Origin: Kitasatospora cheerisanensis KCTC 2395
GTDB taxonomy: Bacteria; Actinomycetota; Actinomycetes; Streptomycetales; Streptomycetaceae
Reading direction: 5' to 3'
Assembly: GCF_000696185.1 (NCBI RefSeq)
Contig: NZ_KK853997.1
Span: forward strand, 1,054,068-1,086,337
Length of the DNA stretch: 32,270 nt
The notes below the pieces were generated by a model, which ran no database searches, had not been told where the DNA came from, and worked only from the letters and a program-made list of their open reading frames with translations. Below, piece by piece: positions 4,225 to 24,568 of the stretch. Numbering within the stretch: the first letter of the stretch is position 1; each line of letters opens with the position of its first letter. The position numbers were made by a program, and so were the translations under genes.

Positions 4225-4746
4225 TCATCTGACCAGACGTCGGACCCGTTCAGTCCGCGACCGGGGCCGCGGCCGGAGCCGCGGCGGGACCGGCGCCGGG
4301 TGGCGGTCGCGGAAGGTGAAGGCGTCCGGCCCCGGGCCGTGGTCGCGGATCCGGGCGAGCCGGTCCATCACCTCGGTGACGCTCGGGCGGTGGCCCGCCG
4401 GCACCCACCACATCGCCTGGTGCGGGCCGTCGGGGCGCTCGAACCACTCCCGGCGGCGGCTCAGCACCCGCAGGTGGTCGCTGCGGTAGGTGTACTCCCA
4501 CAGCGCCTCGGCCGACTCCCACACCGAGGCGTTGATCAGGAACCGCTCGTCCGCCACCCGGGGGTGCACCGCGGCCGCCTCCGCGTCCACGGTGCCGTCG
4601 TCCACCAGCCGCCAGACGAAGCCGGGGCTGCGGTCGGCGAGCGCGTTCAGCTCGTCCAACTGGCCGACGAAGTCGGCGACCCGCGGGGAGTCCCGTGGCG
4701 CGACGAGGCGGCCGACGTTGACCTGAGCAAGGTGAAAGCCAGTCAT
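4225..4746 (-). CDS. DUF3291 domain protein (3' end probably frameshifted)
   Basis: A 173-aa product as read. It opens with FHLAQVNVGRL and contains the Trp-rich core LINASVWESAEALWEYTY and WFERPDGPHQAMWW that mark DUF3291, a compact alpha/beta-barrel-like family related to antibiotic-biosynthesis monooxygenase folds; its function is not established. ATG 4746 is chosen because homology starts there; longer in-frame starts add only unrelated residues. The last 20 or so residues are Arg/Pro-rich and unnatural. Restoring one base near 4300-4310 gives a typical Ala/Pro tail ending at a TGA at 4250-4252, which I think is the true end. The gene lies 32 bp after the SufR-like regulator on the same strand, with an operator-like repeat between them. 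Confidence 0.75.
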   Translation of the reverse strand: MTGFHLAQVNVGRLVAPRDSPRVADFVGQLDELNALADRSPGFVWRLVDDGTVDAEAAAVHPRVADERFLINASVWESAEALWEYTYRSDHLRVLSRRREWFERPDGPHQAMWWVPAGHRPSVTEVMDRLARIRDHGPGPDAFTFRDRHPAPVPPRLRPRPRSRTERVRRLVR

Positions 4747-4772
4747 GGCGCAAGCATGACCCGGACCTTCAT

Positions 4773-4792
4773 CTAAAGTCAACGATCTTTAG
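4773..4792. promoter_or_regulatory. CTAAAG-N8-CTTTAG inverted repeat, candidate operator
   Basis: Exact 6-bp arms at 4773-4778 and 4787-4792 flank eight bases. The site straddles the stop codon of the SufR-like regulator and lies 27 bp before the DUF3291 start. A second CTAAAA copy lies beside it (4794-4799). The stretch is markedly AT-rich for this genome, as expected for a promoter or operator. Confidence 0.5.
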
Positions 4793-5414
4793 TTTTAGAG
4801 AGCGCCACACAGCAGCCGCCCGCGCACGCCTCCATCGCCGCCGTCCACTCCTCCCCCGCCAGACCGTCCAGCAGCGCCAGGTTCATCCCGCACACCAGCC
4901 CCGGGAACTCCTGCGCCAGCGCGTGGAACGGGCAGTTCCGCAGCCGCAGCACCTCGCCGTCGCGGAACGGCGCGTAGCCGCGCGCGCGGAGCTCCTCCTC
5001 CAGGTCCGCACCCGTGCCCGCACCCGCCGCTCCGGCCGCGCGCGCCGCCGCCTGCAACTCCAGGTCCAGGCCCGCCCGTTCGACGGTCTCCGCGAGCAGC
5101 CGGCCGGCCGCGTCGTACGACCGGGGCGGCACCGACACCGCGAACTCCCCGTCGGCGCGCCGGTACAGCTTCGCCGGACGCCCCGCGCCCGGCCCCGTCC
5201 GCCCCGTCAGCCGACGGAACGACACCGCCAGCAGCCCGGCCTCCACCAGCTTCTCCAGGTGGAACGCGGCCAGCGACCGGGAGATCCCGGCCGCCTCCGC
5301 CACCGCATCCCGCCCCATCTCCTCCGGCGCCGCCGCCACCAGCCGGTACAGCCGGCGCCGCACCGGGTCGCCCAGCAGGCCCAGCGCCGCGTACGAGTCG
5401 TCCTCTGCAGTCAT
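4779..5414 (-). CDS. Winged-helix regulator, SufR/COG2345-like, with C-terminal cysteines
   Basis: A 211-aa predicted DNA-binding regulator. The N-terminal winged helix (about residues 8-75, with DPVRRRLYRLV and SRSLAAFHLEKLVEAGLL) is followed by a dimerisation region. The C-terminal domain has conserved cysteines C161 (NCPFHAL), C175 (LVCGMNLALL), C197 and C201/C202 (GGCCVAL). This matches the COG2345 group to which the Fe-S-sensing repressor SufR belongs, where the cysteines hold a cluster. No suf genes are nearby, so the target is more likely the adjacent DUF3291 gene. The final codons (AAA ACT AAA GAT CGT) are AT-rich, unlike the rest of the gene, because they overlap the inverted repeat at 4773-4792. 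Redox or Fe-S sensing is an inference from the cysteines. Confidence 0.75.
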   Translation of the reverse strand: MTAEDDSYAALGLLGDPVRRRLYRLVAAAPEEMGRDAVAEAAGISRSLAAFHLEKLVEAGLLAVSFRRLTGRTGPGAGRPAKLYRRADGEFAVSVPPRSYDAAGRLLAETVERAGLDLELQAAARAAGAAGAGTGADLEEELRARGYAPFRDGEVLRLRNCPFHALAQEFPGLVCGMNLALLDGLAGEEWTAAMEACAGGCCVALSKTKDR

Positions 5415-5522
5415 CCGGCGAGTCTATGACCAGCCGTCGCAGCTCAAAGACCGCGAGCCGCGCGAATCCGCCCGGTGCCGGACCGCCGTGCGCCGGGCTC
5501 CGGGGATTCCCCGCCACCACTA

Positions 5523-5560
5523 TCTACACCTCTGTAGAGTGAGTCCGACCGATCGGACTC
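5523..5560. promoter_or_regulatory. Two adjacent perfect inverted repeats upstream of a small gene
   Basis: TCTACA-CCTC-TGTAGA (5523-5538) is followed after two bases by an exact 8-4-8 repeat with arms GAGTCCGA and TCGGACTC (5541-5560). The ribosome binding site at 5561-5568 comes directly after. The first resembles a TACA/TGTA-type repressor site and contains a possible -10 (TAGAGT, 5535-5540). The second would form a hairpin in the 5' leader just ahead of the Shine-Dalgarno sequence. Confidence 0.5.
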
Positions 5561-5574
5561 GAAGGAGGCCCGCA

Positions 5575-5820
5575 GTGCACCCGCAGCAGCTGCAGACCGA
5601 CCCCACCTGGTCCCCGCCGGAACCCGAAGTCCGCCCCGCCTACCAACCCGTCGAGGTCCGCCTCGACGACACCGACACCTGGACGCTCGGCCGCATCAAC
5701 GCCTGGTGGCACGCCCCCGACGGCACCCCCTGGTGCCGGCTGCGCCTGATCGGCGCCGCACCGCACTGGCGCCGCTACGACCCCGAGCGGATCCTCCTGC
5801 TGCCCACGTACGGCACCTGA
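5575..5820 (+). CDS. Small conserved hypothetical protein (81 aa)
   Basis: The GTG start at 5575 is set by GAAGGAGG at 5561-5568. The product is an 81-aa protein with a Pro-rich N-terminus and a basic, Trp-rich C-terminal half (INAWWHAPDGTPWCRLRL, then HWRRYDPERI). The pattern of short beta strands with W-x-R-L-R-L looks like a small nucleic-acid- or protein-binding barrel of the kind common in streptomycetes, but I do not recognise a named family. Two palindromes immediately upstream suggest tight regulation. It is convergent with the large NTPase gene, 14 bp away. Confidence 0.65.
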   Translation: MHPQQLQTDPTWSPPEPEVRPAYQPVEVRLDDTDTWTLGRINAWWHAPDGTPWCRLRLIGAAPHWRRYDPERILLLPTYGT

Positions 5821-5834
5821 CGGCCCGTCGGCGC

Positions 5835-8800
5835 TCAGGCCGCGTCCTCCTCCGCCGCCGCCAGCACCAGGTCCACCAGCAGCGGGACGAGTTCGGGCGC
5901 GGCCCGGGCGAACTCCTCGACGATCCCGTCCCACGGCGTCAGCGCCAGCGCCTCGACCAGCAGCCGCCGGCCCTCGGGGCCCGGCCCGCGGCGGGCCGCG
6001 AGCATCGCCAGCGCCCGGCCCCGGTCGGCGGGGCCCTTGAGGCCGTCGGCGAGCGCCCGGGCGGCCGGCCACCGGCCGTTGTCGGCCAGGCAGGCCGCCA
6101 GGTGCGGGGCGGTGTGCTCCTTGCGCGGCGAGGACTCCAGCCGGGCCAGCCACGCCTCCGCGCGCGCGAGGTCGCCGGCGGCGGCCGCGGCCCGGACCAC
6201 GGCGGCGATGCTGTTGCTGTGCTCGTTCTCGTGGCGGACCCGCGCCACCAGCCGCTCGGCGGCGTCCAGTTCGCCCCGCTCCGCCAGCGCCTCCACCACC
6301 ACGTGCAGGTGCACGTCCGCGTCCCAGCTGTCGTCGAACCCTTCGATCAGCTCCAGGCAGCGGTCCAGCTGCCCGGTCGCCGCGCAGGCCCGGATCGCCG
6401 CGCTCCGGTACCAGACCAGCCGGGCCGGGCCCGTGGTCACCGCCATCAGCGCGAGCAGTTCGGCCGTGATCCGCTCCGCCGGTCCGCGCTCGCCGATGCC
6501 GACGAAGGCCTCGGCCACGTCCGCCAGCGCATCGCTGCGCTCGGCCGGGTGCGGCAACTGCCGAACCAGCTCGGCCTCCTCCGCTAGCAGGCGCCCGGCC
6601 TCCTCGGCCAGCCCGACCGCGTTCAGCCCCAGCGCCAGGGTGATCCGGTGCAGCGTCCCGGCGAACTGCCGCTCCGTCAGCTCCTCCCGGCTCCGGAGGT
6701 GCCGGAGCAGTCGGACCCCGTCGTCGCGATGGCCCAGGCGTCCCAGGGTCGCCGCCGCCGACGCGACGGACCGGAGCGTCGCGGTCGTCACGGCGCGCCG
6801 CCGGGCGAGCAGGGCGGCTGCGCTCACCAGCTCGCAGGTGTCCTGCTCCTCACCGGCCTGCCACAGCACGTCCGCCATCTCTACCAGCAGCAGGGCGACC
6901 TCACGATCGCTCGCCAGCTGTGGTGCCAGCGCGTTCCCGTGCTCCCGGACGTGGGCGGCGGCCTCCTCGGGCCGTCCGTCGCGCAGCAGCCGCCGGGCGA
7001 TCGCGCGCCGCACCAGCCAGGTGTCCTCGGGCTCCGCGATCTCCTCCAGTGCGGCCTCCGCCCCGTCGAGGTCGCCGTTGCGGGCGCGCGCCCGCGCGAT
7101 CCGGGCGTACGCGTAGTCCCGGTACTCCTCGCCCAGTTCCGAGCGGTCGACCAACTCCCGTGCCTCCCGGTGGAATCCGCCCCGGGCCAGGTCCTCGGCG
7201 ATGTCCGGCAGCGACCACTCCGCCTCGGCCGGATCCAGCAGGTCGGCTTCCGTCACCGCGGCCTGCTGGATCCGTTGCAGCGCCGCCGCGAGTGCGCGGC
7301 CGCCCGACGCGTGTCGAACGATCCCGGCACGCCACACCACCCGCAGCCGACCGTCCCGCTCCGCAGCCACCACGCTCTCGGCCCGCCGCAGCGCCTCGTG
7401 CGCGCCCCGCACGTCGCCGAGCAGGTCCAGCGCGCCGGCCCGGGCGGCCGACAGCTCCATCCTCCGGCCGCGGCCCTCCACGGCGGCGATGGCCGCCCCC
7501 GCGTCCTGCGCCACCGCCGCGGCGAACTCCGGGTGCTCCACCGCGATCCGGTCGGCCGCCATCGCCCGGAGCAGCGCCGTCAGCGCGCCCGCCCGCCGCT
7601 CGGGGTCGGTCAGCTCCCGCGCCAACTGCCGGGCCTCGCCGAACCGTCGGGCGTCGACCAGCCCGCGGGCGATCCCCTCCCGGCACCTGGTCCGGTCGGC
7701 GGAGGAGTCCAGCCCGTCGGCCACCGCGTGCGCGCGGGGCAGCTCGCCCCCTGCCGCCAGCACCCGGGCGACCGCGGTCAGCGACGTGATCCGGTCGTAC
7801 GGGTCGCGGTGCGAGTGCGCCAGGTTGATCGCCCGGTCCACGTGGCCGAACTTGGCCCAGCAGGCGACGACTTCGGTCGGCACCCGCGAGGTGAGGTCGT
7901 GCAGGGCGTCCCGGGACACCGCGATCCGCAGCGCGCCCGCCACCGGTGCCTCGCCCGCTCCGCCGCTCCGCGCCACCAGCACGTCCATCGCCGCGCCCAG
8001 TTCGCCGAGCGCGTCGAAGTCCGAGCCGGTGGTCTCCCACAGCCGCTGCTGCCGCGCCCGGTTGGTGACCAGCTCCACCAGCCGTTCGGCGTCGCCGAGT
8101 TCGCCCAGCAGCCGCCCGTAGCCGCGCAGCAGGTACTCGGGCGTCCCGGCCGGCCAGCCGGCCTCGCGGTGGCCGTCCGCCCAGTGGTGCAGCCGCGTCC
8201 GGTGCTCCGCGAGCTCCTTGCGCGGCATCAGCTCCTCGGCGCTGCGCCGGATCTCCTCGTGCGCCAGCAGGTACGCCCCGGGCCCGTCGGCGTCCCACTG
8301 GCCGGCCCGCCACTGGAAGCTGCGGCCGTCCACCGCCGACAGTTCGCGCTCCACCAACCGCCGTGGGGTGTCGGTCAGTTCGGCAAGGTCGGGGGCGCTC
8401 AGGCCGCCGCCCGCGGCGACCGTGAGGCCGACCAGCTCCCAGCCGAGGCCGCCCGCCTCCTTGAGCCGCAGCAGGTCCTCCTCGGCGTGCAGGCGGATCG
8501 CCTGCGCCGCCGCCGAGAGCGCCAGCGGATGGTCGATGCCGGTGCTCCGCAGCGGGTGCCCGGGCGGGACGTCACCGGGGACGGGCGGGTGCGGCCGGCC
8601 CGCCAGGACGAGGCGCAGGCCGTGCGGCGGGGTGCGCGGCAGGAGGGCGGCGATGCTGTGGCAGTCCGGGCCGGGGCGGACGCCGCGGTCCTCGTCGAGG
8701 CCGTCGACCACCAGCACCAGGCGGCGTCCCTTCTCGGCGCAGTGCGCGGCGGCCCGGTCCAGGGCGAGCCGGAACTGCTCGTCGCGGGTGTGCGGCGTGC

Positions 8801-9221
8801 AGAGCGGCTCCTCCTCGCCCAGCAGCGCGTACAACTGACGCTGCACCACCTCGCAGAACGCGGCGGCGTCCGCCTGGCCGGCGAGGCGCGAGGTGATGAA
8901 GAACGCCGCGATGTCCGTCCCGGCGGGCGGGCGCAGCACCAACTCGGCCAGCAGCGCGGACTTTCCGGCCCAGGCCGGGGCGAGCCAGCGCCAGTAGCCG
9001 CCGGGGCCGGGCTCCGTGCAGAAGGCGTGCAGCTGCGCCAACTCCTCCTCCCGGCCGACGAATTCCGCGGCCGCGAGGGCCTGCACCTGGTGCAGGTACC
9101 CGGAGACGGCGATCGGCCGCCCCGCGGCGAGGTGCACATCGCCCCTGTGCACGCCGCTGTTGGCGTAGCCGCCCGTCCGGGCGTTCGCCTGCCCGCTCCC
9201 CCGCACCAGCGCCCCGACCAC
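5835..9221 (-). CDS. Large STAND/NACHT-like P-loop NTPase with C-terminal helical repeats
   Basis: A 1128-aa signal-transduction NTPase. Residues 5-31 carry a Gly/Asn motif (SGQANARTGGYANSG, S9-G23) shared with the upstream membrane protein. A conserved linker (SGYLHQVQALAAAEFVGREEEL, around 40-61) leads to the P-loop: Walker A is A81-PAWA-GKS (K87, S88), with Ala where the first Gly is usual, and Walker B is LVLVVDGLDED (168-178, D173). FFITSR and AGRPHPP are further core motifs. From about residue 350 to the end come Ala/Leu/Glu-rich helical hairpins of TPR-like type, the usual sensor or superstructure of NLR-like bacterial proteins. GTG 9221 is the first start in the frame after the TGA at 9234-9236, and it has no good ribosome binding site, which suggests translational coupling or a split gene. 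A role in defence or conflict signalling is inferred from architecture. Confidence 0.8.
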   Translation of the reverse strand: MVGALVRGSGQANARTGGYANSGVHRGDVHLAAGRPIAVSGYLHQVQALAAAEFVGREEELAQLHAFCTEPGPGGYWRWLAPAWAGKSALLAELVLRPPAGTDIAAFFITSRLAGQADAAAFCEVVQRQLYALLGEEEPLCTPHTRDEQFRLALDRAAAHCAEKGRRLVLVVDGLDEDRGVRPGPDCHSIAALLPRTPPHGLRLVLAGRPHPPVPGDVPPGHPLRSTGIDHPLALSAAAQAIRLHAEEDLLRLKEAGGLGWELVGLTVAAGGGLSAPDLAELTDTPRRLVERELSAVDGRSFQWRAGQWDADGPGAYLLAHEEIRRSAEELMPRKELAEHRTRLHHWADGHREAGWPAGTPEYLLRGYGRLLGELGDAERLVELVTNRARQQRLWETTGSDFDALGELGAAMDVLVARSGGAGEAPVAGALRIAVSRDALHDLTSRVPTEVVACWAKFGHVDRAINLAHSHRDPYDRITSLTAVARVLAAGGELPRAHAVADGLDSSADRTRCREGIARGLVDARRFGEARQLARELTDPERRAGALTALLRAMAADRIAVEHPEFAAAVAQDAGAAIAAVEGRGRRMELSAARAGALDLLGDVRGAHEALRRAESVVAAERDGRLRVVWRAGIVRHASGGRALAAALQRIQQAAVTEADLLDPAEAEWSLPDIAEDLARGGFHREARELVDRSELGEEYRDYAYARIARARARNGDLDGAEAALEEIAEPEDTWLVRRAIARRLLRDGRPEEAAAHVREHGNALAPQLASDREVALLLVEMADVLWQAGEEQDTCELVSAAALLARRRAVTTATLRSVASAAATLGRLGHRDDGVRLLRHLRSREELTERQFAGTLHRITLALGLNAVGLAEEAGRLLAEEAELVRQLPHPAERSDALADVAEAFVGIGERGPAERITAELLALMAVTTGPARLVWYRSAAIRACAATGQLDRCLELIEGFDDSWDADVHLHVVVEALAERGELDAAERLVARVRHENEHSNSIAAVVRAAAAAGDLARAEAWLARLESSPRKEHTAPHLAACLADNGRWPAARALADGLKGPADRGRALAMLAARRGPGPEGRRLLVEALALTPWDGIVEEFARAAPELVPLLVDLVLAAAEEDAA

Positions 9222-9233
9222 GGCCGTGCCCGA

Positions 9234-9578
9234 TCAGCCGTTCCGGTGACCGGAGTTGGCCGTACCGCCGGCCTCCGCGCGGGCCTCGCCGGTGTCGGCC
9301 ACCCGGACCTGGCCGCCGGCCGGACCGTCGGCCCGGTAGCCCGAGTTGGCGCTGCTCCCGGGGCCGGTGGCGACGGCCGCCCCGGTGCCGGAGACCTCGA
9401 CCGTGCCGCTCCTCGCCCCCGCGACCAGCGGGTAGCAGGCGGCCCCGAGCGCGGCGACCGCGACCACGGCGGACACCACCCCCGCCACCTTGTCCGCCTG
9501 ATCCCACGTCAGGAACGCCAGCACCCCGGCGAACCCGGCCACCGCGAGCCCGGTCACCACGATCACGGTCCGCCGCAC
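9234..9578 (-). CDS. Two-helix membrane protein with repeated T-G-x-A-x-A...A-N-S-G motif
   Basis: A 114-aa protein. GTG 9578 is chosen because GGGGAGG lies five bases upstream. Two transmembrane helices (about 4-23 and 31-53) are joined by a short acidic turn (WDQAD). The remaining 60 residues are a Gly/Ala/Ser/Asn-rich tail with two copies of one motif: TGAAVATGPGSSANSG (65-80) and TGEARAEAGGTANSG (96-110). A third copy opens the NTPase encoded next. The TGA at 9234-9236 is in the same frame as the NTPase start, only four codons earlier, and the motif period (31 then 32 codons) is kept across it. The protein could be a membrane anchor or pore-type effector recruited by the NTPase, or the N-terminal part of a gene split by a nonsense change. 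No named family is recognised. Confidence 0.75.
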   Translation of the reverse strand: MRRTVIVVTGLAVAGFAGVLAFLTWDQADKVAGVVSAVVAVAALGAACYPLVAGARSGTVEVSGTGAAVATGPGSSANSGYRADGPAGGQVRVADTGEARAEAGGTANSGHRNG

Positions 9579-9790
9579 GACTACCTCCCCGAACCCCCCG
9601 AATGATGCCCATACTCCACCAGACTCCGTCCCCCGCACGCAAAACCGGCCGGACGGGCTTTCGGCGGGTCTCCCCCGGCCGCGGGTAACGGTCCGGCGAC
9701 GAGTCGGACACCGATGTCGTCGCGGCGTCGGACCGAACTCCCGCAGTGGGACACTCGGTTGACGGCGGACCACCCCGAGGAGTTGCACGC

Positions 9791-10606
9791 ATGGCATCCG
9801 ACTTCGACGAACCGGCTTCGGCCTCGGGCGGATCGGGGAGGCGGGTCCTCGACCTGCTGGACAAGGCGATCGGCGCGCAGAGCCCGCTGGTGCGCAGGAA
9901 CATCGCCCGGGCCCGCCAGCGGAACCCGGAGGCGACGCCGGCGGAGGTGGTCCGCAATCTGGAGCGGATGTACGTCAGCGCGCTGACCGGCACGGGCGCG
10001 GCCGTCGGCGGCGCGGCGGCCGCCCCGGGCGTCGGCACGGGAGTCGCCCTGGCGCTGTCGGCGGGCGAGGCGCTGTCCTCGCTCGAACTGAGCGCCCTCT
10101 TCGCGCTCTCGGTCGCCGACGTCCACGGCGTCCCGCTCGGCGAGATCGAGCGCCGCCGCACCATCGTGATGGGCATCATGCTCGGCGGCAGCAGCTCGGC
10201 CACCATCACCAAGATCGCCGAGCGGACCGGGCAGCACTGGGGCCGTCAGGTCGTCGCCAAGGTGCCGTTGGAGACCCTGCGCCGGATCAACAGCGTGCTG
10301 GGGAAGAACTTCGTCACGAAGTACGGCACCAAGCAGGGCATCATCGTGCTCGGCCGGGCCGCGCCGTTCGGCATCGGGGCGGTGATCGGCGGGGGCGCCA
10401 ACGCCGCCGTCGCCGCGCTGGCCGTCCGGGCCGCCCGCCGCGCCTTCGGCCCGGCGCCGGACGCCTGGCCGTGGCCGGTCGGGGGCGAGGCTGCGGAGAC
10501 CGGGCCGGTGACCGTCCCCGCCCCGCACTGCCCGGCCTCCGACGGAACTCCGGCGGAGGGCCTCGCCGCCGCCGAGTCCGCCGCCGGGAGCCCCGCCGAG
10601 GAGTGA
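9791..10606 (+). CDS. EcsC-like protein of unknown function
   Basis: A 271-aa protein. ATG 9791 follows GAGGAG after a short gap. The core from about residue 20 to 215 has an amphipathic helix (LVRRNIARARQRNPEATPAEVVRNLER) followed by glycine-rich hydrophobic segments (TGTGAAVGGAAAAPGVGTG, then GIGAVIGGGANAAVAAL). This layout resembles the EcsC family and its actinomycete relatives, which are thought to be membrane-associated. The last 50 residues are a low-complexity Ala/Pro/Glu tail. It is divergent from the membrane-protein/NTPase pair across a 212-bp gap that must hold both promoters, so co-regulation is possible but not shown. The family call is moderate and no biochemical role is known. 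Confidence 0.6.
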   Translation: MASDFDEPASASGGSGRRVLDLLDKAIGAQSPLVRRNIARARQRNPEATPAEVVRNLERMYVSALTGTGAAVGGAAAAPGVGTGVALALSAGEALSSLELSALFALSVADVHGVPLGEIERRRTIVMGIMLGGSSSATITKIAERTGQHWGRQVVAKVPLETLRRINSVLGKNFVTKYGTKQGIIVLGRAAPFGIGAVIGGGANAAVAALAVRAARRAFGPAPDAWPWPVGGEAAETGPVTVPAPHCPASDGTPAEGLAAAESAAGSPAEE

Positions 10607-10691: not shown

Positions 10692-10702
10692 GCGGGGGTG
10701 TG

Positions 10703-11362
10703 TCAGCGGCGGGTGCCGCAGGACGGGCAGAACGCGGAGTCGGCGGGGACGTCCGCGTGGCACGAGGTGCACTGCGGGGGCCGGGCCAGGCGGAAGCCGC
10801 AGGACGGGCAGAACGGGGTGCCGTGGGTCTCGGCGCTGCACTGCGGGCAGACCAGCTGGCGGGCCGCCGTGACGTCGAACTGCTGGGCCTGGGACTGGCC
10901 GTGCTGGTAGGCGTTCTGGGTGACGGCGTCGTTGAGGCCGCGCTGCTGGGCGGCGAGGGCCTCGGCTGCGGTGTCGGGGGCGCAGCCGAGGCAGAGGCCC
11001 TGGGCGGCGTTCCAACAGCGGGCGCAGACGTAGTGGGTGCAGCGGGCGCAGCGGTGGAAGTGCTGCTTCGCGCTGGTGACGGCGCGTTCGAAGGCGGCGT
11101 CCCGGCCGCTGCCCCAGCTCGCGCCGGCCAGGCCGTCGGCGGCGTTGGTGAGGCCGTTGGAGGCGCTGCCGCCGAGCAGGCTCCACGCGGCGCTGACGCC
11201 CTTGTTGATCCAGCCGGCGGCCTGTCCGGTGCGGAACGGCTCGAACGGGGTGCGCCAGCTGTCGTAGCAGCGTGCGCAGGAGAACTCGAACTGGAACCCC
11301 GCGCCGGTGCCGTGCTGCTCGCTCAGGTCCCGGTAGTTGTTGCTGAAGTGGATCTCGCTCAT
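10703..11362 (-). CDS. Zinc-ribbon protein with multiple CxxC pairs
   Basis: A 219-aa protein. Two treble-clef or ribbon units lie in the first half (SCARCYDSW near 28, and RCARC...VCARCW...CLGC around 97-125), and a double zinc ribbon ends the protein (CPQC...CPSCG then CTSC...CPSCG, about 170-215). The middle is Gly/Ala-rich with weakly hydrophobic stretches. ATG 11362 is chosen because a natural sequence begins there; residues further upstream are Cys/Arg-rich and out of character. Such proteins usually act as scaffolds or nucleic-acid/protein adaptors, and nothing here fixes the partner. It is followed by the shared terminator at 10661-10691. Confidence 0.7.
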   Translation of the reverse strand: MSEIHFSNNYRDLSEQHGTGAGFQFEFSCARCYDSWRTPFEPFRTGQAAGWINKGVSAAWSLLGGSASNGLTNAADGLAGASWGSGRDAAFERAVTSAKQHFHRCARCTHYVCARCWNAAQGLCLGCAPDTAAEALAAQQRGLNDAVTQNAYQHGQSQAQQFDVTAARQLVCPQCSAETHGTPFCPSCGFRLARPPQCTSCHADVPADSAFCPSCGTRR

Positions 11363-11477
11363 GGCCGCCGCCCCGTCCTCACACTTCCTACACGTTCGTG
11401 GTGTCGCACAGGCTCCCACACCCGTGTGCGGGGGCCGGGACCGGGGTCTGCCCGCCTGCCGCCCGCCGTCGCGGCGG

Positions 11478-12818
11478 TCAGCCGCCGAACAGGACCGGTC
11501 CCAGCACGGAGGGACGGAACAGCGTGCTCGGCGGTTCCACCAGCGAGGTGACGCGGTGGAAGGCGGCGGAGACGGTGGCGTCGGTGGCGGCGCGGGTGAG
11601 GACGCGGTCCAGGAAGCGGTGCTGGAGGCGGACGACGGGGCCGCGCGGGCCGCCGGTGGTGCCGGCGAAGCGGACGTCCTCGCCGGCGGCCATCATCCAG
11701 GGGTCCTTGGTGGCGGCGGTGATCGCCCGGCGGGCCTCGCGGACGGCGGCGGGGCCGAGTCCGCCGTGCCGGCGGGCGGCGTCGCGCAGGGCGCGGGCGC
11801 CGAGCGCGGCGACGGTGATGCCCTGCCCGTACACCGGGTTGAAGGTGCAGGAGGCGTCGCCGAGGGCGAGGAAGCCGGGCGGGTCGATGCGTTCGTGGTG
11901 CCGGCGGAGGCTCGGTCCGGGCACGAACCCCCGTGCGGGGCCGACGGGTTCGGCCCCGGCGATGGCCTCGGCGATGGCGGGGTCGCGGAGTTGGCCGAGC
12001 TGCTTCTCGAACTCCTCGGGCTGGATGGACGGTTCGAAGCCGCGCATGCCGCCGATGCCGATGATCCAGCGGTCGCCCTCGACGGGCAGCAGGACGCCGA
12101 AGCGGCCGTGCTCGGGGGCGTGGCTCTGCACGTACAGGGCGACCTGGTCCGCCCGGCCGGGCGGGCGGTGGTAGAAGCGGCTGGCGTAGGCGACGCCGGC
12201 GTCGACCCGTTCGACGGGCGTGGTGCGGAAGCCGAGGTCGATCAGCCAGCGGCCGGAGCGGGTGCCGCGGCCGGCGGCGTCGACCACCAGTTCGGCGGGC
12301 AGGTCGGTCACGGGCGCGCCGTCCCGGCCGCGTTCGCGGATCCGCACGCCGGTGATGCCGCGCCGTCCGCCGAGCAGGCCGACCGCCTCGGTCCCCTCCA
12401 GGATCTCGATCGACGGCTCGGCGCGGACCCGTTCCAGCACCACGTGGTCGAGCAGCGGGCGGCTGCAGCTGAGCATCGCCAAGTCGCTCTCGAACTGGGC
12501 GAGTCGGCCCACCGAGGTGTGCCAGCGCAGCCCGCCGGGGACGGCCACCCGGTGGGCGCCGGCGGCGAGCAGGTCGGCGACGGCGCCGGGCAGCAGCTCG
12601 TCGACGGTGCGGTGCCCGGCCTCCATCAGCAGGTGCCCGTGCCGGGCCTGCGGGACGCCCGCGCGGAAGTCCACGCCGTCCGGGTAGCGGTCGCGTTCGA
12701 CCACCACCACCCGTTCCGCGACTCCGCGCAGCGCCCACGCGGCCAGGCACCCGGCCAGTCCGCCGCCGATCACCACCGCCGTGCCGCGGTCCCCGACCGC
12801 CCTCCCCGCAGGACTCAT
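11478..12818 (-). CDS. FAD-dependent oxidoreductase (squalene-epoxidase/halogenase-like fold)
   Basis: A 446-aa flavoprotein. The N-terminal Rossmann motif is VVIGGGLAGCLAAWAL (about 15-30), followed by an acidic residue at the end of strand 2 (VVVVERD). The second FAD motif, LGDASCTFNPVYGQG, lies at about 325-340, as in group A flavin monooxygenases and geranylgeranyl-reductase-like enzymes. Substrate unknown; class A flavoprotein hydroxylases of this type often act on lipophilic or polycyclic compounds. ATG 12818 is chosen because the Rossmann fold starts a few residues later. It is divergent from the antiporter gene with 151 bp between them. The reading frame is intact, in contrast to the next three genes. 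Confidence 0.8.
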   Translation of the reverse strand: MSPAGRAVGDRGTAVVIGGGLAGCLAAWALRGVAERVVVVERDRYPDGVDFRAGVPQARHGHLLMEAGHRTVDELLPGAVADLLAAGAHRVAVPGGLRWHTSVGRLAQFESDLAMLSCSRPLLDHVVLERVRAEPSIEILEGTEAVGLLGGRRGITGVRIRERGRDGAPVTDLPAELVVDAAGRGTRSGRWLIDLGFRTTPVERVDAGVAYASRFYHRPPGRADQVALYVQSHAPEHGRFGVLLPVEGDRWIIGIGGMRGFEPSIQPEEFEKQLGQLRDPAIAEAIAGAEPVGPARGFVPGPSLRRHHERIDPPGFLALGDASCTFNPVYGQGITVAALGARALRDAARRHGGLGPAAVREARRAITAATKDPWMMAAGEDVRFAGTTGGPRGPVVRLQHRFLDRVLTRAATDATVSAAFHRVTSLVEPPSTLFRPSVLGPVLFGG

Positions 12819-12969
12819 GCCCCGTACAGTAGGCGACGCGAAGCGCACCGTCACCGGTACGCGCACACCCGCTCCGCCGCCGCTCGGGCCCGCCGGGCGC
12901 TGGGCCGCCCGGGTGACCTTGCGGGCGCGCAACCCGGTGCGCGGCCGGTTCCCGTCGTGGGATGGGACG

Positions 12970-14717
12970 GTGACCTCTGAGCAGATCCTGACCGGCGCCG
13001 GGCTGACGGTGGTGCTGGCCGTGGCGTCCCAGCTGCTGGCGGCCCGGCTGCGCGTCCCGGCGATCATCCTGCTGCTGCCGGTGGGCTTCGCGGCGGGCGC
13101 GCTCACCGACGACATCCACCCGGACCGGCTGCTCGGCCCCGCGTACGCGCCGCTGGTCTCGCTCGCCGTCTCCGTGGTGCTGTACGACGCCGGGCTCGGC
13201 CTGGACCTGCGGCGGCTCACCGGCGGCACCCGGCACGCGGTGGTCCGGCTGGTGTGGGTCGGCGTCCTGGTGACCGCGCCCGCCGCCGCGCTGCTGTCCG
13301 CGCCGCTGCTCGGACTGTCGGCCGCGGCGGCGACCATGCTCGGCACGATCCTGGTGGTGTCGGGCCCGACGGTGGTCGGGCCGCTGCTGAACTTCGTCCG
13401 CCCGACCGAGCGGGTGCAGCGGATCCTGATGTGGGAGGGCTCGCTGATCGACGCGGTCGGCGGCATCCTCGGCGCGCTGGTCTTCCACGCGCTGGTCGAC
13501 CAGCAGCGCCGGACGCTCGGCCGCGGCCTGCTCGAATTCGCCGCCAGCGTCGGCGCCGGCCTGGCCGGCGGCTGCTCGGCGCGGCCGTCCTGTGGTGGCT
13601 GCTGGTCCGCGTCCGGCTCGGCGAAGTCCTCGGCACCAGCGCCCAGTTGGCGGCCGTGCTGGGCGTCGCGGCGGGCTGCGACGCGCTCCGCGACGACACC
13701 GGGCTGATCGCCGCGGTGGTGATGGGCGTCCTGGTCGCGACCGTCCCCGCCTTCGACCTGCCGGCCCGCCGGCCGTTCTTCGAGACCCTGGTGTCGCTGG
13801 TGGTCGGCGTGCTGTTCGTGTCGATCTCCTCCACCGTCTCCTGGTCCGCGCTGCGCCCCGTGCTGCTGCCCGCGCTCGCCCTGGCCGCGGTGCTGGTGCT
13901 GCTGGTCCGGCCGCTGGTGGGATCGCTGTCCACGGTGGGCTGCGGACTCGCCGAGGGCGAACGGGCGTTCCTCGGCTGGATGGCGCCGCGCGGGATCGTC
14001 GCCGCGTCCACCGCCGCGACCTTCTCCGCGGGCCTCGCCGCGGCGGGCATCGGCGGCGCGCAGAAGATCCTCCCCGCCACGTTCACCGTCATCGTCGCCA
14101 CCGTCACCGTGTACGGGCTGACCGCCGTCCCCGCCGCCCGCCTGCTCCGGGTGGTCCGGCGGGCCCGGTCGCGGCCGCTGCTGGTCGGCGGCGAACCGTG
14201 GACGGTCGAACTGGCCGCGGTACTGCGCTCCGCCGGGCTGGACGTCCTGCTGTGGGCCGGCCGCGACGAGCAGCGCGCCCGCATCGCCGCCGCCGGACTC
14301 CCGCTCGCGGACGGCGAGTTGCTCGCCACCGTGAGCGGCGAGGCGGTCGAGCAGGAGGGCGTCACGGCGGTCTACCTGCTCACCGCCGAGGACGAGTTCA
14401 ACGCGCTCGCGGCGGTGCTGCTGGGCGACGACTCCGCGCTGCCGGTGCACCGCCTGGCCGCCGCCCGGCCCGGCCCGGGCGTCCACGCCCCGGCCCGTCC
14501 GTCACCGTCCTGCCCGCCGCCCTCACCGCGGCCGAACTCGCCGCCGCCACGCCGCCGGCGCCCGCATCCTCCGCCGCCCCGCCACGGCCCGCTCCCGCCC
14601 GGCCACGACCTCCTCTTCACCCTCGACCGCACCGGCCTGCTGCGCCCCGCCACCTCCCACGGCCGCCCGGCCAAGGGGGCACCCGTCGCCGAACGCATCG
14701 TGCTCGGCCCGGCCTGA
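12970..14717 (+). CDS. Cation/proton antiporter with C-terminal TrkA-N-like domain (frame broken)
   Basis: Monovalent cation:proton antiporter (CPA type). The membrane part has about 12 helices, with the marker SGPTVVGPLLNFVRPTERV and MWEGSLIDAVGGILG; it is followed by a cytoplasmic nucleotide-binding (TrkA-N/RCK-like) region from PLLVGGEPWTVELAAVLRS. The likely start is GTG 12970. The frame is broken four times, each explained by one missing base: near 13570 (GLAGG then LLGAAVLWWLL) and three times between about 14488 and 14590. The last three add to a whole codon, so the final frame (PLPPGHDLLFTLDRTGLL) is recovered and ends at 14717. All four breaks are deletions in G/C runs. I regard the gene as functional in the organism and damaged in the sequence. 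The transported ion (Na+ or K+) cannot be read from the sequence. Confidence 0.8.
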
Positions 14718-22932: not shown

Positions 22933-23165
22933 TGCGGCGATCAGGAGGGCTTTCCTGGCGGGCGGGCCGCGCTCCCGGCGGGCGGGGGCGGGTGCCCCGG
23001 ACTCCCGACGACCGCCAGCACCCGGTGACGGAACGTCAGGGCCCGCCCTGCTGCCGACGGCGCGCCTTTGAGGATGGGGTTCTGGCGTCCGGCCGTTGCC
23101 TCCCCACTCCTGCCGGTGCTCGTCGGGGGTGGCCGTGGCGGCCGTCGCGGTCGGCGCGACCGGAG
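22933..23165. other. Intergenic stretch holding a partial copy of the MFS 5' region
   Basis: No gene is supported here. Bases 22938-22955 (GATCAGGAG...CTTTCCT) repeat the first codons of the MFS gene (23214-23231), so this arm looks like a decayed duplicate of the MFS promoter and gene start. The rest, including short G/C runs, shows nothing further. Confidence 0.4.
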
Positions 23166-23205
23166 GTAACGCACCTTGTCCAGTTTTCCGTTACCGACGT
23201 AGCGT
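23166..23205 (+). promoter_or_regulatory. Operator copy 2 with MFS promoter
   Basis: GTAACG (23166-23171), N17, CGTTAC (23189-23194) brackets the -35 element TTGTCC (23176-23181). After an 18-bp spacer comes TAGCGT (23200-23205), and the GTG start follows seven bases later, so the MFS mRNA is probably leaderless. Confidence 0.6.
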
Positions 23206-23212
23206 CCGGCGG

Positions 23213-24568
23213 GTGATCAGGAGTTCTTTCCTCCGCCGTTGCCTGGCGGGTGCCGTGGCTGCCCGGACCGGTGACGAGATGTCGGGGCCGGCGCTGTTGC
23301 TGGCGGGTTTCGCCGTGGCCGGTTCTGCGGGCGAGGCGTCCGCGTTGCTGGCCGCGTTGACGGCCGCTTCGGCGCTGGGCGGCCCGCTGCTCGGTGTCCG
23401 GCTCGATCGGGCCGGCCGCCCCGGCCGTCTGCTGGCCGTCGCGCTGGCGCTGTACGCCGCGGGGCTGCTCGGCGTCCTGCTGGCGCTGGACCGCCTGCCG
23501 TTGCCGCCCGTGCTGCTGCTGGCCGCGGCGGCGGGGCTGCTCGGCCCGGCGCTGTCCGGCGGCTGGACGGCCCAACTGCCCCGGGTGGCTCCCGGTGACC
23601 GGCTGGCCCGGGCGAACGCCCTGGACGCGATGACCTACGGCGTGGCGGCTCTCGCCGGCCCGGCGCTCGCGGGCGCGGTCGCGGTGGCGTTCGGTCCGGG
23701 CCCGGCGGTCCTGGTCGCGGCCGGCCTGATCGCGGTGGCCCTGCCCGCGGCCTGGACCCTGCCCGCCCGCACCGACACCCGCCACGACCGGCCCGCCGTC
23801 CGCACCGAACTCGTCGCGGGTTTCCGGGTGTTGACGAAGCGTCCGGCGCTGGCCCGGGCCACCGTCGTCTCGCTGGGCTCCAGCGCGGGCCAGGGCATGC
23901 TGGCCGCCTGCCTGCCGCTGCTGGGTGAGGCCGCACTGGGCGGCGCGAGCCGCGGCCCGCTCCTGCTGGCCTGTACGGCGGTGGCCGCGCTCCTGGCGAA
24001 CGCCGCTCTCGCCCGCCGCCCCGACCTGCTCGCCCCGGACGCCGCGGTCCGCGTCGGCGCACTGCTGCAAGCGGCGGCCCTGGCCCTCGCCGCGACGGCG
24101 CACCCGCTCCTGCTGGTCGCCGCGGCCGCCCTGGCCGGCCTCGGCGAGGGGCCGCAGCTCACGGGCCTGTTCGCCGTCCGCCACCGCGAAGCGCCCGACC
24201 ACCTCCGCAGCCAGATCTTCACCACCGGCGCCAGCCTCAAGATCACCGCTTTCGCCCTCGGCACCGCCCTCGCCGGCCCGCTCGCCACCCGATCCGCTCC
24301 CGTCACCCTCGCCCTCGCCGCCACCCTCACCGCCGCCACCGCCCTGCTCCCCTCCCCGGCCCGCGCCGGCCCGCCCCGGCAAGAACCCGCACCTGACCGG
24401 GCCTCGCAAACCCCCTGTCACTCCCGGCCGCTCCCGGCTCTCGCCGGCGTCCGGCTGGCTAGTGCTGGAAGAGCACCTCCGGGTTGTTCGGCGAGGGGCC
24501 GTCCAGCAGCGGGCTGTGGACGGACTTCAGCGACTGGTCGAAGAACGCCGTCACGTACTCGCGCGTGA
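23213..24568 (+). CDS. MFS transporter (3' end probably frameshifted)
   Basis: A 12-helix major facilitator type exporter; hydrophobic segments run throughout, with the basic loop LDRAGRPGRLLAVAL between helices 2 and 3 and the segment WTAQLPRVAPGDRLARANALDAMTYG typical of the group. GTG 23213 is chosen from the leaderless promoter TTGTCC-18-TAGCGT. As read, the frame continues to 24568 and overlaps the convergent hydrolase gene by 110 bp with an unnatural Pro/Arg/Cys tail. Restoring one C near 24375 would end it at the TGA at 24394-24396 after ARTRT, leaving a normal 62-bp gap. I prefer that end. Its operator is shared with the divergent CGNR regulator, so it is probably induced by the CGNR ligand and exports it or a relative. 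Confidence 0.8.
   Translation: MIRSSFLRRCLAGAVAARTGDEMSGPALLLAGFAVAGSAGEASALLAALTAASALGGPLLGVRLDRAGRPGRLLAVALALYAAGLLGVLLALDRLPLPPVLLLAAAAGLLGPALSGGWTAQLPRVAPGDRLARANALDAMTYGVAALAGPALAGAVAVAFGPGPAVLVAAGLIAVALPAAWTLPARTDTRHDRPAVRTELVAGFRVLTKRPALARATVVSLGSSAGQGMLAACLPLLGEAALGGASRGPLLLACTAVAALLANAALARRPDLLAPDAAVRVGALLQAAALALAATAHPLLLVAAAALAGLGEGPQLTGLFAVRHREAPDHLRSQIFTTGASLKITAFALGTALAGPLATRSAPVTLALAATLTAATALLPSPARAGPPRQEPAPDRASQTPCHSRPLPALAGVRLASAGRAPPGCSARGRPAAGCGRTSATGRRTPSRTRA

Follow-up and report, generated by a model that had tools for sequence, protein, structure and literature searches.

HET-s is built as a two-rung beta-solenoid. In the fungal HET-s/HET-S system, two pseudo-repeats of about 21 residues are carried by the effector and one by its NLR (PMC7889193, PMC8086366; here and below, publications are cited from excerpts). 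In the bacterial NLR/Bell signalosomes with the motifs BASS1 to BASS10, the two genes are adjacent; the NLR carries the motif N-terminally, and its partner, a small effector of membrane type, carries it C-terminally (PMC7889193). These systems occur in filamentous actinobacteria, and the motif can be repeated on the effector side, as for BASS4 (PMC8086366). A two-gene module with the design of this known BASS/Bell NLR-effector kind was identified in a stretch of 32,270 nucleotides from Kitasatospora cheerisanensis KCTC 2395 (contig NZ_KK853997.1, positions 1,054,068 to 1,086,337; hereafter the window). Its first gene (9234..9578, minus strand) codes for a two-helix membrane protein of 114 amino acids with two motif copies in its C-terminal tail, here termed the effector. 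The second (5835..9221, minus strand), separated from the first by 12 bases, codes for a NACHT-like STAND NTPase of 1128 amino acids with TPR-like C-terminal repeats and a single copy at its N-terminus. The two-plus-one distribution is that of HET-s and its NLR, whereas the repeats of the window measure 23 residues, the organism is bacterial, a two-helix domain takes the place of the HeLo domain, and the likeness in beta-solenoid rungs is a predicted one. An immune switch is the probable role of the two genes: the NTPase, once activated and oligomerised, would template the effector copies, the membrane would be breached and the infected cell killed.

The motif has the consensus V-x-V-x-x-T-G-x-A-x-A-x-(G)-G-G-x-A-N-[ST]-G and a length of about 23 residues including the leading V-x-V strand. 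The initial annotation had placed a 15-residue motif at residues 65-80 and 96-110 of the effector and 9-23 of the NTPase. All three copies are present in the two open reading frames (ORFs), whose positions and lengths were confirmed by translation, but copy 1 already comprises 16 residues in that delimitation and the full motif is longer. It is shared by effector and NTPase beyond chance. With a model trained on effector tails, from which the rows of the window and of K. griseola had been left out, the NTPase N-terminus scored 17.5 bits, which was reached in none of 20,000 shuffles of its 60 residues. The local alignment of the NTPase N-terminus with the effector tail has a score of 52 (reached in 11 of 5000 shuffles), and the score of effector copy 1 against copy 2 was reached in 2 of 5000. 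The general motif model, for which 17 of the 20 rows of the tail alignment were used in training, some of them from loci scored later, gave 89 matches with at least 10 bits, as against none in reversed sequences (1.55 million residues). Nearly all of these matches are located in small C-terminally tagged proteins or in NTPase N-termini; the few others fall into frames that are short or secondary. A comparison of the motif profile with solved chains for a relation of the repeats to HET-s returned a single, unrelated match at E 4.6.

Relatives of the NTPase were collected by an alignment-based scan of genome contigs. The best 80 of 234 relatives represent 77 distinct loci, all of them actinobacterial, to which the window was added as the 78th. 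The NTPase core was usable in 76 of these, L192 and L233 being left out due to a short core. NTPases with an N-terminus scoring at least 9 bits with the motif model were assigned to class A, and a partner was counted if an ORF of less than 700 amino acids with the same motif was present anywhere in the fetched locus, the effector of the window being entered by hand. A motif-bearing partner was found for 32 of the 35 class-A NTPases and for 4 of the 41 others (Fisher p 1.3e-13, a value in which relatedness is still contained); the latter four appear by eye to be degenerate members of class A. A stricter threshold gives 28 of 31 for class A as against 8 of 45 for the rest (p 1.8e-10). On the tree of the NTPase cores, class A requires 13 changes, at least 6 of which are forced by strongly supported branches. 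In six independent contrasts, 4.6 pointed the same way, 0.0 the other way and 1.4 were undecided, which is short of significance (median p 0.0625); with labels from the hidden Markov model (HMM) only, seven contrasts gave 4.2 for the same and 1.0 for the opposite direction (p 0.375).

The correspondence between partners was also analyzed by re-pairing. For the 40 of 75 loci with a hydrophobic upstream ORF, where partners were assigned by a hydropathy rule, the cognate pairs reached a summed score of 1905, more than any of 20,000 re-pairings (maximum 1813). The values for 37 hand-picked pairs are 1853 and 1488, and those for the 22 hand-picked pairs outside class A are 1115 and 928; these 22 were chosen by eye with both partners visible (L115 left out), a choice that favours the pairing reading. 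Specificity at the level of single pairs inside class A is unsupported (p 0.13, hand-picked set), and since the overall re-pairing was positive, the specificity seems to lie between motif families and not between pairs. Where the N-terminus of a relative bears another motif, that motif often recurs in the partner, like A-x-G-G-x-I-G-x-A-V-T-G-D in L215 and L241 or G-V-Q-I-G in L217, L235, and L250, and several more types exist. Likewise, relatives of the membrane part of the effector, some of them weak profile matches, carry other motifs that are matched in their NTPases.

Several of these loci show further features. In L028, RHIM-like I-Q-I-G copies, possibly BASS3, occur both in a membrane protein (about 2037-2471), for which five relatives were found, and in the downstream NTPase. 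NTPases with other matched motifs are adjoined by small membrane proteins, in many of which a signature of the ADKxASV type is present, in L113, L114, L118, L119, L121, L124, L133, L136, L140, L141, L143, L215, L232, L239, and L241; several motifs of this group may be undescribed signalling motifs. The NTPase N-termini of L225 and L231 seemingly contain two motif types in tandem, a V-V-Q-A type followed by class A, a possible hybrid specificity. In class C, which comprises NTPases of the V-x-Q-A-G type (L240, L246, L248, and others), 12 of 13 are without a hydrophobic upstream partner by the hydropathy rule, which may mean that their effectors are soluble proteins or have their genes at another place.

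The effector sequence itself found matches in 16 of 297 family genomes including that of the window, the weakest of which (L015-L017) are probably due to chance. An effector profile matched in 51 of the 297 family genomes and, across the class, in 25 of 394; both counts take in the genome of the window as well as matches that are weak or show another motif. A two-copy effector followed by a one-copy NTPase is present in nine loci (L018-L023, L025, L026, L029). In L019 the NTPase frame ends early (484 amino acids), and in L029 the NTPase is of the NB-ARC type and unrelated to that of the window. In L026 both partners have a variant A-x-S-G motif ending, and its P-loop (ASAWAGKT) is off the search pattern, yet with 46% identity over 507 columns the NTPase is homologous. 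No intact NTPase frame follows the effector of L024. In most of the homologous loci that were read, the two genes have remained adjacent; L108, L201, L207, and L210 are arranged otherwise.

When only the two-copy tail was modelled, 53 of the 297 genomes had a match at E <= 0.01. Among 62 tail matches at E < 1e-4, NTPase N-termini account for 16 and small proteins with a P-loop ORF after them for 23; 38 of these 39 were assigned by an automatic rule and the pair of the window by hand. Three matches lay outside the DNA that was read. For the other 20, the automatic rule, which is blind to P-loops of the APAWAGKS type, gave no P-loop ORF. Reading of the loci showed that eight of the 20 (L018-L023, L025, L026) adjoin an NTPase of exactly this type and that L108 has a divergent NB-ARC-type partner within the same stretch. 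For the remaining 11 of the 62 (L024, L027, L111, and two each in L091, L097, L120, and L125) no NTPase partner was found, some of them being broken or at contig ends. The recurrence of the motif at the termini of STAND NTPases and in adjacent proteins, which the initial annotation had named as a point to check, is borne out by these 39 matches, the nine added by reading, and the class-A counts. At least two further types of effector N-domains are tagged by the motif, one in L099, L109, and L112 and one in L108, L110, L120, and L123, and it pairs with NB-ARC NTPases and other effector domains as well. A Pfam scan of the N-domains of L110, L112, and L123 gave no significant match. A putative fusion of the membrane part with a NACHT domain in L144 was dropped, because the similarity was too weak (E 2.9e-4).

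The membrane topology of the effector was deduced from hydrophobicity and an AlphaFold2 (AF2) model, which is based on 60 sequences and has a mean pLDDT of 78.5 and a pTM of 0.46. The start codon chosen for the gene matches that of the homologues P0004 and P0005. Two membrane helices are predicted at residues 2-22 (9513..9575, block pLDDT about 62-77) and, by model and alignment, at residues 30-53 (9420..9491), with the signature DQADKVAGVVSA just before and within the second one. They are followed by motif copy 1 at residues 60-83 (9330..9401, 34.6 bits) and copy 2 at residues 91-113 (9240..9308, 33.8 bits), both scored with the own row left out. The tail is predicted to form a two-rung beta-solenoid, with one rung of three strands per copy (60-63, 68-71, and 76-83 in copy 1; 91-94, 99-102, and 106-113 in copy 2) and a block pLDDT of 88-90 across most of both copies. 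The model found no match among solved structures, where a relative may still exist, and the sequence had no significant match in Pfam. The matches in the family libraries included no enzymatic or pore-forming family, and the single PHROGs match (E 0.051) was below interest.

The NTPase shows the STAND layout of a P-loop core with Walker A and Walker B followed by a repeat region. Its motif copy (residues 9-23, 9153..9197, minus strand) is predicted to be disordered in the monomer (pLDDT <50), whereas the whole AF2 model has a mean pLDDT of 87.7. The P-loop domain proposed in the initial annotation is present, with Walker A APAWAGKS (residues 81-88, 8958..8981), of which G86, K87, and S88 are invariant in seven sequences including the window, and Walker B LVLVVDGLDED (residues 168-178, 8688..8720), of which D173, D176, E177, and D178 are invariant in 39 sequences. 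The sequence APAWAGKS is atypical, yet common to close relatives. The C-terminal part, about 780 residues of which had been described initially as helical repeats, is predicted as such by AF2; a TPR/PPR-like alpha-solenoid at about residues 360-1124 (5850..8144), with profile matches to TPR and PPR structures, is the presumed sensor. The protein is named NACHT-like only, because its score with Pfam NACHT (PF05729, 15.5 bits) is under the gathering cutoff of 26.7. Residues 42-935 match the PADLOC model STAND_TPR (PDLC01173, E 4.6e-101), which is described with a fused Xre helix-turn-helix domain and an association with cas1-less type I-E systems, whereas the N-terminus of the NTPase in the window is the motif. 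The best Foldseek match is Avs3 (8dgc, E 6.7e-10, overall TM-score low at 0.23). A STAND core with a long helical repeat domain is common to both, but no fused effector domain was seen in the NTPase of the window and its output presumably passes through the separate membrane protein. Apaf-1 is also among the fold matches.

Stand-alone copies of the motif are encoded by Streptomyces phages. The sole high-probability viral match of the effector model in Foldseek is a protein of 62 amino acids from phage Coruscant (probability 1.00, E 0.059, target-normalised TM-score 0.62, 41% identity over 56 columns), which was assigned by phage and length to HUN41_00107/QMP84231.1 (MT711976, 72202-72390). The accession comes from PMC7650747, where the phage is described as predicted virulent, with a GC content of 48%. 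The two motif copies of the ORF score 31.3 and 20.6 bits; the next best six-frame score in the fetched stretches is 5.8 and the best reversed score 4.5. The protein has no hydrophobic segment (maximum hydropathy over 17 residues -0.10), and its start, MWPFSKKK, is similar to the starts of NB-ARC NTPases, e.g., MVRWPWSKG in L109. The label Pfam DUF4774 was not adopted (19.2, under the cutoff of 25). In the phage collection, the Coruscant protein found EhyElimayoE, Satis, Kradal, Quantum, and Frankenweenie at E 1e-4 to 3e-4 and JustBecause and Kela at E 0.08, and the Frankenweenie protein as query found the same seven Streptomyces phages at E 2e-7 or better. Thirteen further records from Salmonella, Proteus, and Escherichia phages, matching the Coruscant protein at E 4, were taken as chance. 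Each of the seven Frankenweenie-type proteins has two motif copies and no membrane segment, the sequences of EhyElimayoE and Satis being the same. Together with the Coruscant protein they measure 62-73 amino acids and contain little beyond the two copies. Three metagenomic viral contigs carry further copies.

The gene is present in all seven Streptomyces phage records with a Satis-type helicase at >=82% identity; Frankenweenie has been assigned to cluster BM (PMC10652959). Among 194 records sharing the capsid gene of Coruscant, including 127 Streptomyces phages, only the two records of Coruscant matched the double-motif gene, which therefore seems to be accessory there, with the low-complexity filter of BLAST as a caveat. 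In plasmids, the phage protein had four matches (E 0.02-0.08), all of them in or over the start of genes with an annotation as TPR or NB-ARC proteins. The second phage copies scored best with the model of the second effector copy in four of four proteins (41.2, 43.2, 43.4, and 33.9 bits). The first copies of Satis and JustBecause scored best with the model of the NTPase copy, built from nine peptides (33.6 vs 26.0 and 29.2 vs 16.8), whereas for Frankenweenie and Coruscant the two models scored almost alike, with the effector copies slightly ahead. As dN/dS is 0.21-0.51 over ten pairs of five Frankenweenie-type genes (L264 left out), the protein is maintained under purifying selection. Copies of three other motif classes were not found in phages by BLAST with the low-complexity filter on; this negative is weak, because the window tail and the effector as queries also missed the class-A phage proteins. 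In the literature covered, from which subscription papers and preprints were mostly absent, no phage copy of a bacterial NLR signalling motif is reported, and the cited passages on BASS signalosomes do not mention any; within that coverage, the stand-alone phage copies are the new element of this analysis. Next to the double-motif gene, Satis gene 90 (L256, 2474-2893) codes for a protein with hydrophobic segments, whose counterparts in EhyElimayoE, Kradal, Quantum, and Frankenweenie are labelled membrane protein, and which might act jointly with the double-motif protein. Coruscant (L254-L255, 45001-133000) additionally encodes an NADAR protein, RNA ligases, and a polynucleotide kinase. These may, together with its 41 tRNAs (PMC7650747), serve other counter-defence.

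In STAND proteins, ligand sensing by the repeats drives oligomerisation of the NTPase. In the module of the window, this would cluster the N-terminal copies, which could then nucleate a beta-solenoid in the form of an amyloid-like fibre. The two rungs of the effector would join this fibre and concentrate the two-helix domains, leading to membrane damage and cell death. A soluble phage protein with two copies would join without a membrane part and thereby cap or titrate the assembly. Directly visible in the sequences are the shared copies, the two-plus-one layout, the conservation in pairs, the change of motif in both partners, and the double copies in phages. They speak for the switch, together with the predicted two-rung fold, the predicted disorder of the NTPase copy, the fold matches to Avs3 and Apaf-1, and the occurrence of the two genes without the EcsC-like gene in K. 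griseola. These points also support the motif-linked switch of NTPase and membrane protein suggested in the initial annotation, in which defence or programmed death would be the outcome; for these, the phage copies are indirect support. Neither a wide occurrence of the motif apart from STAND genes nor its general absence from one partner was observed. The exceptions are the NTPases of L212, L224, and L225, which have the motif and no motif-bearing partner in the DNA fetched, and the loci L027 and L097, where the motif-bearing neighbour is not an NTPase. The chances are about even that the motif belongs to a BASS family among the ten already published, with BASS1 and BASS4 as possibilities, and that the effector has a Bell domain, which would leave the mechanism the same. 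Its recurrence across Streptomyces and Kitasatospora means that it may well be catalogued already; the published design, from filamentous actinobacteria, has the same two sites, N-terminal in the NLR and C-terminal in a small membrane-type effector encoded next to it (PMC7889193), and BASS4 frequently occurs as repeats in the Bell protein (PMC8086366). In an NB-ARC protein of Streptomyces, a BASS1 motif spans residues 9-27 (PMC12261475), and in a protein of S. atratus a BASS3 motif spans residues 70-124 (PMC9815663), a layout like that of the two-helix family of the window. However, the effector has no significant Pfam match, and the published BASS passages do not cover the phage copies.

It is unlikely that the motif is a plain homotypic adaptor anchoring the NTPase to the membrane for regulation, e.g., of development or antibiotic production, with the small membrane protein as a receptor platform. 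Some STAND-TPR proteins, like MalT and AfsR, are regulators, the maltose-system regulator 8bob is among the fold matches of the NTPase, and the small effector gave no match to a family of enzymes or pore formers. But the motif of the receptor changes along with that of the effector, the effector domains with which the motifs occur are diverse, phages carry the motif, and the family-library scans of the NTPase gave no DNA-binding family. That the repeats are a compositional artefact of Gly/Ala/Ser-rich linkers in high-GC DNA was rejected as hardly conceivable on the shuffle and reversed-sequence controls: the motif consists mostly of G, A, S, T, and N and the window has 70-79% GC, but the same motif is present in a phage with 48% GC (PMC7650747), and the dN/dS of the phage genes also argues against it. 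For the phage proteins, we lean towards the interpretation that Streptomyces phages of two groups captured the motif as free proteins of 62-73 residues which cap or sequester the signalosome, as a counterpart of the herpesviral decoy RHIMs and as evidence that the NLRs are antiviral. The decoy RHIMs in ORF20 of varicella-zoster virus (VZV) and M45 of murine cytomegalovirus (MCMV) are likewise viral copies of a host amyloid motif, for which sequestration of the sensor was proposed (PMC7375649). Here, phage and bacterium are the opponents, the motif is unrelated, and the protein is little but two copies; VZV ORF20 may be regarded as the closest analogue. The core tetrad of the RHIM is I/V-Q-I/V/L-G, and it is absent from the phage protein sequences; the likeness to the decoy RHIMs would thus be one of function only. 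The main rival for this part, which we consider the less probable one, is that the phage proteins are not decoys but seed the host effector for lysis, exclude other phages, or trigger the NTPase. Seeding is as conceivable as capping for a protein with two copies, the N-terminus of the Frankenweenie type is basic and possibly amphipathic, and the presence of the gene in seven of seven Frankenweenie-type records is as for a useful core gene. However, early firing of a host death switch would presumably be costly to the phage, and a motif that lacks the membrane part is reminiscent of dominant-negative designs like the VZV decoy RHIM (PMC7375649).

The surroundings of the module are largely conserved, as the window is colinear with K. 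griseola at 4268-9652 and 10702-12895. An EcsC-like gene (9746-10606, plus strand; Pfam EcsC 16.5 bits, under the cutoff) lies between the effector gene and a zinc-ribbon gene. It was rejected as a third component, since it is missing from the otherwise colinear K. griseola locus, where both module genes are present; the module is thus counted as two genes, and the EcsC-like gene is a gain or loss beside it. The double-zinc-ribbon protein adjoining the module (10703-11419, minus strand) has 88% identity in K. griseola, and a small protein of about 85 amino acids (about 5560-5820, plus strand), convergent with the NTPase gene, has 79%. The AT skew is strongly negative at 13001-14000 (-0.44) and 23001-24000 (-0.42), unlike the remaining window, perhaps due to T-rich codons of membrane proteins on the plus strand. 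An Rfam scan of the window at gathering thresholds gave no match.

The role of microbial NLRs with amyloid motifs was named a major blind spot in 2021 (PMC7889193). If the reading of the module and of the phage proteins is true, phages are what these NLRs act against, and motif mimicry is a counter-move in bacteria and mammals. The phage proteins, if they are decoys, would be small natural inhibitors for the study of bacterial death switches.

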